Assembly (NCBI GenBank): GCA_020628975.1
Contig: JAHDEF010000004.1
Span: 1 to 32,102 of the forward strand
Direction of reading: 5' to 3'
DNA: 32,102 nt
Source: Aquimarina sp.
Lineage (GTDB): Bacteria > Bacteroidota > Bacteroidia > Flavobacteriales > Flavobacteriaceae
Both the position numbers and the translations under genes were made by a program. Below, piece after piece: positions 6,686 to 25,906 of the stretch. A model generated the notes under the pieces. It saw only the letters and a program-made list of their open reading frames with translations, did not search any database and had not been told where the DNA came from. Positions within the stretch are counted from its first letter, which is position 1. Each line of letters opens with the position of its first letter.

Positions 6686-7663
6686 CTATGGAACCATTGT
6701 GAAAGGTTCTATACGGCTTACATCAATTTTCTTTATACGAGAAAAACGTTCATTTGGATTATCGGTAACGAGCCACTTGTGTAGTGTTTTTACTTTCATT
6801 TTTTGATCGTTTTTTGCAATTCCATACCAATCAAAAGCAACAGAGACTTTATAATTGTTTTCATCGATCACTTCAATTTCAAAATTCTCAGGATGATGAT
6901 TACTAGATTTAAGCTGTAATGGAGTTCCGTTTAACCATGCTTTAAATTTTTCAATAGAACTAATTTTAGATTCAGAAGAAAAATTCAATTCAAAATCATC
7001 AGTTAGTAACTCTTCAAACGGAGTCACATTTCCATCAAGGCGTTCCATGTTTGCTATCCAATAATGCATTAAAGATAAGGCTCTGTTTGTGTGATAACTA
7101 TCCTTGAAGTTTGCTTCAATAGGGCTTGTCGGAGTTATTTTTACTGAGGAAAACTCAGGAAGTTCTCCTTCTTTTTCAATTAAATCGATAGTATAGTCAA
7201 GAGCATAATTAGCTTTTTTACCATCAGGTTGAATGTTGTTGTAATTTATTTTAGCAATTAATTGAGCTCCATTGCTCTCTGTATTTTGATAAGATACTTG
7301 CTGTACATGATGTGCATTTTTCCACCCTTTGTAAACGTCCAATCTCTTAGGGTAATTTTCTTTACCAGTCATGGTACCAGCACTAGTTTCGATGGTAATA
7401 TTTTCCGATAGAAGTTCCATTTGATTGGAAACTCTTTGAGGATTCATTGGGCGCTCATAAAGTTGATACCAGCGGTAATATTGAGTTTTGGCTAGATGTG
7501 TTGTAAGTGTTTTCTCTTTTTTAAAAACAATCTCAAGGGCTGTAGTTTCTTCTTTTGTTGGTTCTTCGTTTTTGGTTACCTCATTATTGGATTGTGTTTT
7601 TTTACAACAAACAAGAAAAGATAAACCTATAGGTAGCAATGCTTTTACAACATTAGTTTTCAT
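6686..7663 (-). CDS. Lipoprotein with two NTF2/SnoaL-like domains
   Basis: Read from the ATG at 7663, this gives a 325-residue lipoprotein with signal sequence MKTNVVKALLPIGLSFLVC. The ORF track start at 7711 adds 16 residues in front of a proper signal peptide and is less likely. After a Thr/Glu-rich stretch, two regions resemble NTF2/SnoaL-like folds: one begins near YYRWYQLYERPM and contains an IETSAGTMTGKENY strand, the other begins near ALSLMHYWIANMERLDG with DDFELNFSSESKISS. Such domains are often polyketide cyclase-like or ligand-binding; the function is not known here. It would sit in the periplasm or outer membrane. A perfect 16-bp palindrome lies 7 nt upstream of the start. Confidence 0.7.
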   Translation of the reverse strand: MKTNVVKALLPIGLSFLVCCKKTQSNNEVTKNEEPTKEETTALEIVFKKEKTLTTHLAKTQYYRWYQLYERPMNPQRVSNQMELLSENITIETSAGTMTGKENYPKRLDVYKGWKNAHHVQQVSYQNTESNGAQLIAKINYNNIQPDGKKANYALDYTIDLIEKEGELPEFSSVKITPTSPIEANFKDSYHTNRALSLMHYWIANMERLDGNVTPFEELLTDDFELNFSSESKISSIEKFKAWLNGTPLQLKSSNHHPENFEIEVIDENNYKVSVAFDWYGIAKNDQKMKVKTLHKWLVTDNPNERFSRIKKIDVSRIEPFTMVP

Positions 7664-7670
7664 AATTGTA

Positions 7671-7686
7671 TTGATTTTAAAATCAA
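7671..7686. promoter_or_regulatory. Perfect 16-bp palindrome upstream of the lipoprotein start
   Basis: TTGATTTTAAAATCAA is a complete palindrome ending 7 nt before the ATG at 7663. It could be an operator for a dimeric regulator, but it is AT-rich and might be a chance match. Confidence 0.3.
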
Positions 7687-7759
7687 GGTACGAACTTATT
7701 TTAGGAGGCATTTCCTCTTTCTAGAATATTTATGAAATCAGAATCAAGCAATGCCTAGT

Positions 7760-8521
7760 CTATCTTACAAAAACGGGCTCATTTTCTTTTACGGTATATT
7801 CTTCGCTAAATCGATACTCTTCGACATTAAAAGCTTTGATGCCTTCTAAAGATTCAATATCATTATCAATTAAATAGCGTGACATTAATCCTCGTGCTTT
7901 TTTAGCGTAAAAGCTGATGACTTTTAATTTGTCATTTTTCCAATCTTTAAAAACGGGGGTTATTACAGGGTTTAAAACCTTTTTTAAATTTACTGCTTTA
8001 GCATATTCGTTACTTGCTAAATTGACAATTAATTCTCCTTCTTTTAATTCTTGCTGTAGATATTCTGTTAGGGTTTCATTCCAAAATTCATATAGGTTTT
8101 TAGCGCTATTGACTCCAAATTTAGTTCCCATTTCTAATCGATAAGGTTGAATTAAATCTAGTGGCTTTAATAAACCATATAAGCCTGATAAAATACGTAA
8201 CGAATCTTGTAGCTGGTCTAATTTTTCTAACGGAAAAGAATAAGCGTCTAAACCACTATATACATCGCCATCGAAGGTATAAATTGCAGGGCGTGCATTT
8301 TCTGGAGAAAACGGAATTTTCCATTCATTGTTACGCTGCCAATTAAGATCTGCTAATTTTTCACTAATACTCATTAATTTAGAAAGTTCTGCGGGAGACT
8401 TTTCACGAATAGCTTTGTTTAAAATTTCTGATTTTGCTAAAAATATAGGTTCCGAAACTCTATTTGTTGGCAGTTCAGAAGTTTCATTCAACGATTTTGC
8501 TGGCGAAATAAGTATTTTCAT
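7760..8521 (-). CDS. yaaA: Peroxide stress protein YaaA (DUF328)
   Basis: A 253-residue protein with the conserved start MKILISPAKSLN and the blocks PAIYTFDGDVYSGLDAYSF, LRILSGLYGLLKPLD, MGTKFG, and VISFYAKKARGLMSRY. YaaA family members limit intracellular free iron and DNA damage during hydrogen peroxide stress and have been reported to bind DNA; they act in the cytoplasm. The ORF track begins at 8560, but its first 13 residues come from translating a heptamer repeat array, and the real start is the ATG at 8521, which gives the family N-terminus. A candidate promoter lies about 95 nt upstream, beyond that array. Confidence 0.93.
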   Translation of the reverse strand: MKILISPAKSLNETSELPTNRVSEPIFLAKSEILNKAIREKSPAELSKLMSISEKLADLNWQRNNEWKIPFSPENARPAIYTFDGDVYSGLDAYSFPLEKLDQLQDSLRILSGLYGLLKPLDLIQPYRLEMGTKFGVNSAKNLYEFWNETLTEYLQQELKEGELIVNLASNEYAKAVNLKKVLNPVITPVFKDWKNDKLKVISFYAKKARGLMSRYLIDNDIESLEGIKAFNVEEYRFSEEYTVKENEPVFVR

Positions 8522-8523
8522 AG

Positions 8524-8558
8524 TAATGGCAATCAGCTGGCAGCTATTGGCTATCAGC
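8524..8558. repeat. Heptamer tandem repeat, arm next to the yaaA start
   Basis: Five 7-nt units in exact phase, such as TAATGGC, AATCAGC, TGGCAGC and TATCAGC on the plus strand, end 3 nt before the yaaA start codon. They are inverted relative to the array at 8701-8783 (TATCAGC here, CTGATAG there). About 140 nt lie between the two arrays; this stretch holds a candidate promoter and nothing else recognisable. Confidence 0.75.
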
Positions 8559-8615
8559 ATTAATGTTTTTTAATTTAGTATCGCCTAAAGGACTTGACTT
8601 CTTATGGCTTATCTC

Positions 8616-8623
8616 CAAAAATA
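8616..8623 (-). promoter_or_regulatory. Candidate -7 element of yaaA
   Basis: TATTTTTG on the minus strand matches TAnnTTTG. It lies 95 nt before the yaaA start, so the leader RNA would contain the heptamer array. Confidence 0.35.
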
Positions 8624-8700
8624 AAATTAATTCTTAGTGAACATCTTATGAAATTGTTTTAAAAGCTAAAATTTTATGATTAAGAAAGTTTACAGCATTT

Positions 8701-8783
8701 TGTTATCCGTTATCTAACATCTATTTCCTACTTCCTATTTCCTGATAGCTGTCTCCTGTTAACTATTTCCTATTTCCTAATAT
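8701..8783. repeat. Heptamer tandem repeat, arm next to the pseudouridine synthase stop
   Basis: Nine units in perfect 7-nt phase run from 8721 to 8783: four are CTATTTC, and the others include CTACTTC, CTGATAG, CTGTCTC and CTGTTAA. Two further degenerate units (TGTTATC, CGTTATC) precede them after a 6-nt irregularity. The array stops 4 nt before the stop codon of the neighbouring gene. It is the most regular array in the window. Confidence 0.85.
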
Positions 8784-8787
8784 TTAA

Positions 8788-9861
8788 TCAAGACACACTG
8801 CTTTCTGCATATTTACGCCACTTATCAACACAGTTTGCGATATCATCAGGAATTGGGGCTTCAAAAAATTTCCATTCACCCGTTGTTGGATGTTCGAAAC
8901 CTAAAGTCCTAGCATGTAAAGCTTGACGAGGTAAAATGCGAAAACAGTTTTCAACAAATTGTTTGTATTTAGTAAACGTAGTTCCCTTCAAAATCTTTTC
9001 TCCTCCGTAGCGCTCATCGTTAAATAAGGTATGCCCAATGTGTTTCATATGTACACGAATTTGATGGGTCCGCCCTGTTTCTAACTTACATTTGACTAGG
9101 GTAACATAACCTAAACGCTCGATAACTTCAAAATGGGTTACTGCTGGCTTTCCTTTTTCAACTTCATCACCTTCCCAAACTGTATTTTGCAACCTATTTT
9201 TGGGGTGTCTACCAATATTCCCTTCAATAGTTCCTGCATCTTCATCAATATTCCCCCAAACTAAAGCTATGTATTCACGCTGACTCGTTTTATCAAAAAA
9301 CTGTTTTGAAAGATGAGTCATAGCTTCTTCAGTTTTAGCAATTACTAATAAACCACTCGTATCTTTATCAATACGATGTACTAATCCTGGTCGATCGCTG
9401 CTATTATTAGGTAAATTTTCGAAATGATAAATTAAGGCATTAATTAAAGTTCCATCGTAATTTCCATGCCCTGGATGCACAACCATTCCTGCTGATTTAT
9501 TTACTACTAAAAGCGCATCATCTTCATAAACAATATCAATTGGAATGTTTTGTGGGGTGAGTAAATTCTCATAAGGTGGATGTTCAAACATCACGCGAAC
9601 CACATCATTAGGCTTTACCTTATGATTGCTTTTAACAGGTACGTCGTTTACCCAAACGGCACCATCTTTTGCTGCTTGCTGTACTTTGGTACGCGTTGCG
9701 TTTTCAATAAAATTCATTAAAAATTTATCTACGCGCAATGGCACTTGCCCTTTCCCTGCAACAAAGCGGTAGTGTTCGTGTAAATCATCTTCTAAAAATT
9801 GTTGCGGTCCTATTTCTTCCTTCATGTTGTAATCTTCATTAAATATATTACTGTGACCCAT
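8788..9861 (-). CDS. RluA/RluD-family 23S rRNA pseudouridine synthase
   Basis: A 357-residue enzyme with an N-terminal S4 RNA-binding domain (LRVDKFLMNFIENATRTKVQQAAKDGAVWVNDVPV region, about 40-100) and a pseudouridine synthase catalytic domain. The catalytic Asp lies in HRIDKDTSGLLVIAK, and the family motifs VVNKSAGMVVHPG and LETGRTHQIRVHM are intact. It isomerises uridines, probably in 23S rRNA as RluD does; the exact sites cannot be read from sequence. The ORF start at 9861 overlaps the end of the PASTA gene by 14 nt, suggesting translational coupling. The ATG at 9825 is an equally credible start giving 345 residues. Confidence 0.92.
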   Translation of the reverse strand: MGHSNIFNEDYNMKEEIGPQQFLEDDLHEHYRFVAGKGQVPLRVDKFLMNFIENATRTKVQQAAKDGAVWVNDVPVKSNHKVKPNDVVRVMFEHPPYENLLTPQNIPIDIVYEDDALLVVNKSAGMVVHPGHGNYDGTLINALIYHFENLPNNSSDRPGLVHRIDKDTSGLLVIAKTEEAMTHLSKQFFDKTSQREYIALVWGNIDEDAGTIEGNIGRHPKNRLQNTVWEGDEVEKGKPAVTHFEVIERLGYVTLVKCKLETGRTHQIRVHMKHIGHTLFNDERYGGEKILKGTTFTKYKQFVENCFRILPRQALHARTLGFEHPTTGEWKFFEAPIPDDIANCVDKWRKYAESSVS

Positions 9862-14266: not shown

Positions 14267-14761
14267 ATGTCTTTAAATTCATTTTTTGTGAAAAGAAAAT
14301 TTATTCATATCGGAGTAGCTGTTTTGGTTTGTTTAGCTGCAGGTTTTTTGGGTTCGGTAGCTACGCAAACTTCTGTAGGTACTTGGTATCCGACTATAAA
14401 TAAGCCTTCATTTAATCCTCCGAATTGGATTTTTGCTCCCGTTTGGACTACCCTATACATCATGATGGGCGTTGCTGCCGGATTAGTTTGGAATAAAGGG
14501 TTTCACCACAAATGGGTAAAAACAGCTATGTATCATTTTGCATTTCAATTACTTTTAAATGTTTCTTGGTCATTGGTGTTTTTTGGATTGAAAGAAATTT
14601 TTGGGGCTTTACTGATTATCATTGGTTTGTTTGTGCTTCTTTTATTTACATTTAAATGGTTTAAAGTGGTAAAGCCAGTAGCTGCTTATCTTCTTATACC
14701 TTATATATTATGGGTAGGTTTTGCTACTATGTTGAATTTTAGCATTTGGCAACTCAACTAA
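14267..14761 (+). CDS. tspO: TspO/MBR-family membrane protein
   Basis: A 164-residue protein with five predicted transmembrane helices and the typical aromatic-rich sequence: GTWYPTINKPSFNPPNWIFAPVWTTLYIMMG, then WNKG, QLLLNVSWSLVFFG, and the C-terminal WVGFATMLNFSIWQLN. TspO proteins bind porphyrins and are linked to tetrapyrrole and stress physiology in the bacterial membrane; the physiological role here cannot be deduced. It is divergent from the mevalonate operon. The gene ends exactly where a heptamer repeat array begins. Confidence 0.93.
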   Translation: MSLNSFFVKRKFIHIGVAVLVCLAAGFLGSVATQTSVGTWYPTINKPSFNPPNWIFAPVWTTLYIMMGVAAGLVWNKGFHHKWVKTAMYHFAFQLLLNVSWSLVFFGLKEIFGALLIIIGLFVLLLFTFKWFKVVKPVAAYLLIPYILWVGFATMLNFSIWQLN

Positions 14762-14855
14762 GTTCCAAGTTAATAGTTATCAGTTAATGGTCTCAACTTA
14801 TTTTAATAAGTCAATCAAGTAACTATGAACTAAGAACTACAAACTAAAAACCTAA
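14761..14855. repeat. Heptamer tandem repeat, two opposed arms between tspO and the DUF4442 gene
   Basis: The left arm (14761-14788) has four units, AGTTCCA, AGTTAAT, AGTTATC and AGTTAAT. The right arm (14821-14855) has five, including AACTATG, AACTAAG, AACTACA and AACTAAA. The two consensus units are reverse complements (AGTT against AACT). Between them is a small hairpin (ACTTATT/AATAAGT). The array occupies the whole intergenic space: it starts at the last base of the tspO stop codon and ends 3 nt before the next ATG. Confidence 0.85.
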
Positions 14856-14858
14856 AAA

Positions 14859-18042: not shown

Positions 18043-19209
18043 ATGAATGTTCGCTTATTGCTTTATTTGTTATTGATTGTTTGTACTGCCTGTAAAAAGA
18101 AGGTCGATTACACCACCATCGCTAAAGTTGACGAGCCTTCTTTTAGTTTTAGCGCCTTGCCTTCACAGATCAACACTCCTTCGGATAATACGCTTAGTCA
18201 AGAAAAAATAGCATTAGGAAAACTACTTTTCTTTGATCCTATTTTATCAGGAAATAAAGATGTTGCTTGCGTTACCTGTCACCACCCTTCTCATGGTTAT
18301 GCTGAGTTTAGGGATTTGTCTATTGGTGTAAATGGTATTGGATTGGGTGTCAACAGAAAATTCAATAGCCCGAATACGATTCCTCTCGTTAAAAGAAATG
18401 CCTATACTGTTTTAAATACTGCCTTTAATGGGATGATTGACAGTGTTACCTCGAACCCCAAAAAGGCCGCTATGTTTTGGGATAACAGAATCAGCAGCTA
18501 AGAAGCACAAGCGCTAGAACCTATTAAAGCATTAGAGGAAATGCGGGGCACCAAAATTTCTAAAGTTGATATTTTGGATACCATCATTCAGCGTTTAAAA
18601 AACAATAAGCGCTATGTTGAATTATTCACAAATGCTTTCTCTAATGAATCTTCGATTACCACATCGACTTTAAGCAAAGCTATTGCTAGTTTCGAACGTA
18701 GTTTAACAACCCCTAATACTCGATTTGACCAATACCTAAACGGTGACCTCAACGCGTTGTCTTCTTCTGAAAAGGAAGGATTTGAAACTTTCAAACGTGT
18801 GGGCTGTGCCGAATGCCATAAAGGGCCTATGTTTTCCGATTATAAACTGCATGTTTTGACTGTTCCTGAAAACGAAAAATTATCTTTTGTAGATTCGGCT
18901 TTAGGGGATTTTAAATTTAGAACTCCTACACTTCGTAACTTACGCCTTACTGCTCCTTATATGCACAATGGCACTTTAAATAGCCTACAAGAGGTGCTAG
19001 AATTTTATGAAGGGATTGCTGGAAACAAGTCAAGGAATCCTAATGTGACTGCAAAAAAAATAGATCCATTAATTAAAAAAATGAGGTTGAAAACTAAAGA
19101 CATTCATCCTATAGTTTCATTTTTAAACAGCTTGAATAGTGATGATTTTGACAAAAAAATCCCACAACAAGTTCCTAGTGGACTTCCTGTGGGAGGGGAT
19201 ATCTATTAA
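18043..19209 (+). pseudogene. Di-heme cytochrome c peroxidase (MauG/CcpA family), interrupted by one in-frame stop
   Basis: Two ORFs in the same frame make up one gene of 389 codons. The N-terminus is a lipoprotein signal (LLLIVCTAC). The first heme site is CVTCH in VACVTCHHPSHG, the second CAECH in VGCAECHKGPMFSD, and the C-terminal block YMHNGTLNSLQEVLEFYEG is normal. The frame is broken by a TAA at 18499-18501 in WDNRISS-stop-EAQALEPIKALEEMRG. Related proteins have Leu at this position, so a single TTA to TAA change explains it. The rest shows no other damage, so the mutation is recent or a sequencing error. Restarting at ATG 18541 would yield only the second half without a signal peptide. 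The intact enzyme would reduce H2O2 in the periplasm. Confidence 0.88.
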
Positions 19210-25827: not shown

Positions 25828-25830
25828 AAA

Positions 25831-25906
25831 GTCTTAGTAGTTAGTCGTTAGATCGCTACGCTTTTAGAAAACTAATGACTAATATCTAAAGACTAACTAC
25901 TAATTT
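25831..25906. repeat. Heptamer tandem repeat forming an 18-bp inverted repeat between DUF1569 and mpl
   Basis: The left arm has three units ending in TTAG (GTCTTAG, TAGTTAG, TCGTTAG, 25831-25851). The right arm has five units starting with CTAA (CTAATGA, CTAATAT, CTAAAGA, CTAACTA, CTAATTT, 25872-25906). Together 25834-25851 and 25886-25903 form an 18-bp inverted repeat with one mismatch, so the region could also act as a terminator for both converging genes. The mpl stop codon lies inside the right arm. Confidence 0.85.

Follow-up and report, generated by a model that had tools for sequence, protein, structure and literature searches.

The 32,102-nt stretch analysed here (the window), which comes from an Aquimarina sp. 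MAG, contains a 266-nt gap between a gene for an RluD-like pseudouridine synthase and yaaA, and each end of this gap is occupied by a degenerate heptamer array (Table 1). Read along the sense strand, the RluD stop is followed by an 85-nt heptamer tract, which begins TTAGGAAATAGGAAATAGTTAACAGGAGACAGCTATCAGG, then by a 135-nt spacer, the yaaA-side array and the yaaA ATG. Pfam bears out the gene names given in the initial annotation of this DNA, and the arrays adjoin both genes as it had stated. Its observation is confirmed; its interpretation, i.e., that copy number of the repeat units tunes expression of a peroxide stress gene, for the most part fails.

Table 1. Features of the RluD-like/yaaA gap and further array pairs in the window.
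Feature	Position	Strand	Evidence or remarks
yaaA (peroxide stress protein YaaA family)	7760..8521	-	PF03883, E 3.1e-90, match from residue 1
yaaA-side heptamer array, CT-core arm, length fixed	8522..8567	-	Putative 5' UTR and translation initiation region
Upstream in-frame ATG of ORF 7760-8560	8558..8560	-	39 nt upstream of yaaA start; false start
Spacer with candidate yaaA promoter	8568..8702	-	135/137/136 nt in the three species
Candidate -7 box TATTTTTG	8616..8623	-	TAnnTTTG type (Bacteroidetes); ~102 nt before ATG
rluD-side heptamer array, AG-core arm, ~12 degenerate units	8703..8787	-	Lag-7 identity, TRF, homologous (TCAGGTA)n in L056/L057
RluD-like pseudouridine synthase	8788..9861	-	Pfam S4 + PF00849; stop TGA 8788-8790
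Second family member in window	14761..14857	.	AG-core 14761-14787, CT-core 14821-14857; nearly fill ++ gap
Third family member in window	25830..25902	.	Inverted arms AGTCTTAGTAGTTAGTCGTTAG ... CTAATGACTAATATCTAAAGACTAACTACTAA, convergent gap

The two arrays and the yaaA leader

The rluD-side array is clearest at 8721-8783, within a full extent that follows from alignment to relatives (Table 1), and its sense strand contains TAGGAAATAGGAAATAGTTAACAGGAGACAGC. The clearest part consists of nine in-phase units, as originally claimed, every one of which starts with CT on the plus strand (CTATTTC, CTACTTC, CTATTTC, CTGATAG, CTGTCTC, CTGTTAA, CTATTTC, CTATTTC, CTAATAT), and it does terminate 4 nt from the RluD-like stop. 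This periodicity is highly significant: lag-7 identity is 37/56, while the other lags tested give 9-20 matches, and Tandem Repeats Finder independently reports 8721-8779 with a period of 7 and 8.4 copies.

On the sense strand the yaaA-side array runs GCTGATA, GCCAATA, GCTGCCA, GCTGATT, GCCATTA and CT, and the whole sequence between the spacer and the yaaA ATG reads GCTGATAGCCAATAGCTGCCAGCTGATTGCCATTACT. Lag-7 identity at 8524-8558 is 15/28, and other lags reach no more than 9; p is ~0.08 when the window is taken alone, while the orthologous arrays of the two nearest relatives, L056 and L057, are clearly periodic (0 of 5000 Markov shuffles reach them in either). The array lies beside the yaaA ATG (8519-8521), as had been noted, at a distance of 2 nt instead of the 3 nt claimed. 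The open reading frame 7760-8560, which starts at an upstream in-frame ATG, had been taken to translate the units as an N-terminal extension of YaaA. That extension is an artefact, since the same frame reads MLIADS* in both relatives, with a TGA after six codons, and the Pfam match starts with the annotated methionine.

A candidate promoter had been placed between the arrays, and a candidate -7 box was found there that follows the flavobacterial -7 consensus, TAnnTTTG (PMC9723704), and is kept in the relatives (TATTTTTG in L056; TATTTTTA, with a final A, in L057). Given this position, the yaaA-side units would fall in the yaaA leader. We infer a leader of ~90 nt, a provisional length because the candidate -33 element is weak (TTCA/TTTA, ~18-19 nt upstream). 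Within the spacer, whose overall identity to the relatives is ~70%, a 20-nt block at 8668-8687 (minus strand TTTCTTAATCATAAAATTTT) is identical in all three species and may be a regulator site or a second promoter. Elsewhere in the window, two adjacent plus-strand ORFs, 18043-18501 and 18541-19209, each resemble one half of a di-haem cytochrome c peroxidase-like gene, which a frameshift may have split.

Comparisons between species covered three species at the rluD-yaaA locus and nine orthologous gaps elsewhere. At this locus, L056 (CANMML010000001.1) and L057 (CANLOW010000001.1), whose YaaA is ~80% identical, hold both arrays at matching positions, and 95-101 of the 138-139 spacer columns are identical to the window. 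The rluD-side array measures 85, 50 and 29 nt in the window, L056 and L057, respectively, steps of exactly 35 and 21 nt, which correspond to 5 and 3 units; its units are altered too, being degenerate and AGGAAAT-like in the window versus near-perfect TCAGGTA in the relatives. The yaaA-side block is 46 nt long in all three species, and 38-39 of its 46 columns match the window, with 7-8 substitutions and zero indels. In other Flavobacteriaceae the yaaA gap is mostly roughly 90 nt long and array-free, so the array pair appears to be specific to this small clade.

A genome-wide family of array pairs at gene edges

The yaaA arrays are one of many gene-edging inverted repeat pairs in these marine bacteria. 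Our census covered 979 kb of the 1.94 Mb of this 70%-complete genome (G000) and 380-400 kb of a relative, G058, with ORFs called by a simple script, so the positions of some gene starts, and of the gap edges that depend on them, are approximate. The 979 kb hold 52 period-7 segments, 47 of them intergenic, compared with 1-10 segments for other periods between 4 and 15, except for the harmonic 14 (27), and none at period 7 after a first-order Markov shuffle. Arrays were present in 66/532 gaps of this genome and 36/241 gaps of G058, i.e., in about one gap in eight, and they lie a median of 8 nt from the gene edge versus 24 nt with random placement (p 6e-10). They also have a strong polarity: AG cores occupy the left half of a gap and CT cores the right half (36:6 vs 10:29; odds ratio 17; p 4e-8), and among pattern matches in which AGT- and ACT-arrays are paired at most 450 nt apart, AGT came first in 28 of 28 (28:0). 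Neighbouring units resemble each other more than distant units (p 3e-5), as slippage predicts.

The same pattern was found in 102 of the 201 Flavobacteriaceae sampled and, for a sample of 80 genomes from the class, in 38. Across 16 array-rich genomes a period-8 version of the pattern was rarer and a period-6 version nearly absent; these two patterns replaced reversed-pattern controls, which other heptamer arrays also match, so that they do not provide a clean null. The rluD-yaaA gap has all the marks of the family, namely period-7 arrays at its edges, AG on the left, CT on the right and a complementary second arm. Two further members lie in the window (Table 1), of which the one in the convergent gap overlaps the minus-strand gene at its 3' end; its outer ends form a perfect 13-bp inverted repeat (TTAGTAGTTAGTC / GACTAACTACTAA).

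Complementarity is greater between the arms of a given gap than between arms from different gaps, in this genome (p 2.5e-5) as in G058 (9e-6). Nine orthologous gaps carry arrays in each of the two genomes; there the within-species match between arms exceeds the cross-species match (p 0.01), and several orthologous gaps have switched unit type, e.g., gap 6-7 of locus L187, which is GCTATTA-like here and AGTACAA-like in G058. When the two arrays of the rluD-yaaA gap are scored as complementary arms, both relatives reach 30 (p 0.001 for L056; 0/2000 for L057), and the G058 ortholog of this gap, also with a score of 30, is among the best-paired gaps. Complementarity in the window is weak (score 18, p 0.08), which is consistent with a diverged rluD-side arm.

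Some loci carry heptamer pairs in successive gaps, with the unit type varying by gap (L261, G058:C2:225001-245000; L187, G000:C28), which gives the impression of entire gene clusters bordered by pairs. An integron-like cassette reading of such successive gaps was ruled out, since gene order is conserved between species. Several contigs of this genome (C12, C120 and C65; loci L172, L014 and L222) have a heptamer array in their first ~100 nt, so the arrays probably break short-read assemblies.

Proposed turnover of the arms and competing readings

We consider it probable that the arrays turn over at the DNA level, through slippage and arm-to-arm template switching that are stopped by functional sequence. 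The two yaaA-gap arrays would be the outer arms of one family member, the AG-core arm first and the CT-core arm second, each lengthening, shortening and homogenising through slippage by 7 nt per step. The arms of one gap would stay similar through processes acting on DNA, of which template switching between quasi-inverted repeats is the simplest; it is reported to homogenise inverted-repeat arms (PMC8604942, PMC7202029). Growth of an arm would halt at constrained sequence, whether coding sequence, a promoter or a translation initiation region, such that the rluD-side arm may be free in length and the yaaA-side arm frozen at five units in the yaaA leader and ribosome-binding region. Flavobacterium johnsoniae is without Shine-Dalgarno sites, and A at -3, -6, -12 and -13 favours initiation there (PMC6847099); A is kept at -3, -6 and -12 of yaaA in all three species, which together would give a plain reason for the frozen block.

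It is unlikely, though worth weighing, that the arms are instead functional intercistronic RNA hairpins that pair in the mRNA for termination, processing or stability. Their complementarity and the stem-loop shape of short gaps fit such hairpins, and the enrichment of arrays between co-directional genes (16% of gaps vs 7%, p 5e-4) could point to a role at the transcript level. However, G.U is no more frequent than A.C among the mismatches between arms (32:37), which leaves selection on an RNA hairpin unsupported and led us to reject compensatory pairing in RNA as the driver of arm likeness. The sense RNA of the rluD-yaaA gap folds no better than shuffles (whole gap z +1.15), and in a convergent G058 gap the arms flank a separate terminator-like hairpin. 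The lack of G.U bias and the ordinary fold together favour upkeep in DNA. A hairpin in the leader was also considered and is unconvincing (z -1.37 for the 44-nt leader, -0.83 for a 111-nt region); Rfam gave zero matches in 7600-9000 up to E 1, and zero in the whole window at the gathering score.

By analogy with TAACTGA repeats, the arrays may alternatively be binding sites of a DNA- or RNA-binding regulator, to which we likewise give a small chance. A constant core with the remaining positions free, a constant polarity and the adjacency of arrays to start codons would all suit a regulator, but unit types switch between orthologous gaps, and a sequence-specific reader would thereby lose its sites.

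Turnover through neutral slippage leaves both the AG-first polarity and the core common to the unit types unexplained. A more speculative thought, which we hold to be improbable, is an active gene-boundary system of Bacteroidota, in which a specialised activity, of replication, repair or reverse transcription, writes and rewrites inverted heptamer arms with a fixed polarity along gap edges and replaces the unit type of both arms together. If true, gene edges would be marked through structure and not sequence.

Copy-number tuning, in which slippage of the leader array moves the yaaA 5' UTR by 7-nt steps and so tunes a peroxide gene, now appears very unlikely. The yaaA-side array does lie next to the ATG, probably in the leader, and the 7-nt steps that had been predicted exist at the locus; however, they are confined to the rluD-side array, upstream of the candidate promoter. 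A comparison of unit number among relatives had been suggested as a check, with a fixed number speaking against tuning, and at the level of species the leader array is constant; of this species itself, a second isolate was looked for and none was found. Since its length is equal in all three species, the yaaA-side array does not appear to adjust yaaA through its copy number, and a regulatory role for copy number seems doubtful. The array is also degenerate, which should lower slippage, and the family has no tie to yaaA, peroxide or stress genes, being found in 82/503 co-directional and 20/270 other gaps. Heptamer arrays beside start codons do not, on their own, amount to evidence of phase variation. 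Equally remote is a mobile element with heptamer arrays as terminal inverted repeats, as inverted pairs, dispersed copies and relatives with short, array-free yaaA gaps might suggest, because the spacer is the locus's own promoter region and alignable across species, the arms are flush with both genes and not within a longer gap, and unit sequences vary among copies.

Relation to known repeat systems

REP, BIME and REPIN elements are dispersed intergenic inverted repeats of fixed palindromic sequence that are linked to RAYT transposases; the present arrays share the dispersed, intergenic and inverted arrangement, and only they are heptamer arrays. Closer parallels are the TAACTGA direct repeats of marine Beggiatoaceae, cyanobacteria and five Bacteroidetes, which in marine Beggiatoaceae have been proposed as regulator binding sites (MacGregor 2015, PMC4679880). 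Like the arrays described here, these are heptamer direct repeats, often a few nt from a start codon, they show 7-nt indels between close Cyanothece strains, and one Flexibacter litoralis set directly follows a stop in reverse orientation (PMC4679880). The yaaA-side array similarly precedes a start codon at close range (2 nt), and its units in the relatives, TAGCTGA and TAGCCGA, differ from TAACTGA at one or two positions. The TAACTGA unit itself is absent from the rluD-yaaA locus, where units are of GCTGATA/GCCAATA/GCTGCCA and TAGGAAA types, and arrays of it are present elsewhere in this genome (e.g., C30:9183). The TAACTGA system favours one heptamer, related ones being seldom repeated, and has mostly one orientation (PMC4679880), whereas the present family has paired inverted arms and a broad, switching vocabulary, and occurs in about half of the sampled Flavobacteriaceae.

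The GGGAATC repeats of Xanthomonas and the GGGGA(C/T)T repeats of Nostoc are dispersed intergenic heptamers near the preceding ORF; Xanthomonas genomes carry 70-75 convergent inverted GGGAATC pairs each, with matching gene contexts in two species and changed lengths (PMC4692102). These pairs follow the same gap-level logic as the present family, in which AG comes first (28:0) and arms are complementary. They are built from one fixed, G-rich, quadruplex-forming unit (PMC4692102), unlike the many AT-rich unit types found here, which have an AG/CT core, no G-tracts and cross-species switching; GGG is absent from both yaaA-gap arrays, whereas GGGAATC-type units have G-tracts of at least 3. Long simple sequence repeats with a heptanucleotide excess, for which slippage was proposed, likewise favour period 7, and in the summary of that work gene-edge inverted pairs are not described (Mrazek et al. 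2007, in PMC4679880).

Heptamer repeats near start codons and convergent inverted heptamer pairs that change in length are therefore already known; in the open-licence literature we found no description of the switching vocabulary, constant AG-first polarity and gene-edge placement seen in Flavobacteriaceae. The excess of heptamers in bacteria has been known since 2007 and its explanation is unsettled, and polarity, arm complementarity and unit-type switching offer testable handles on how such arrays originate and why they halt at genes.
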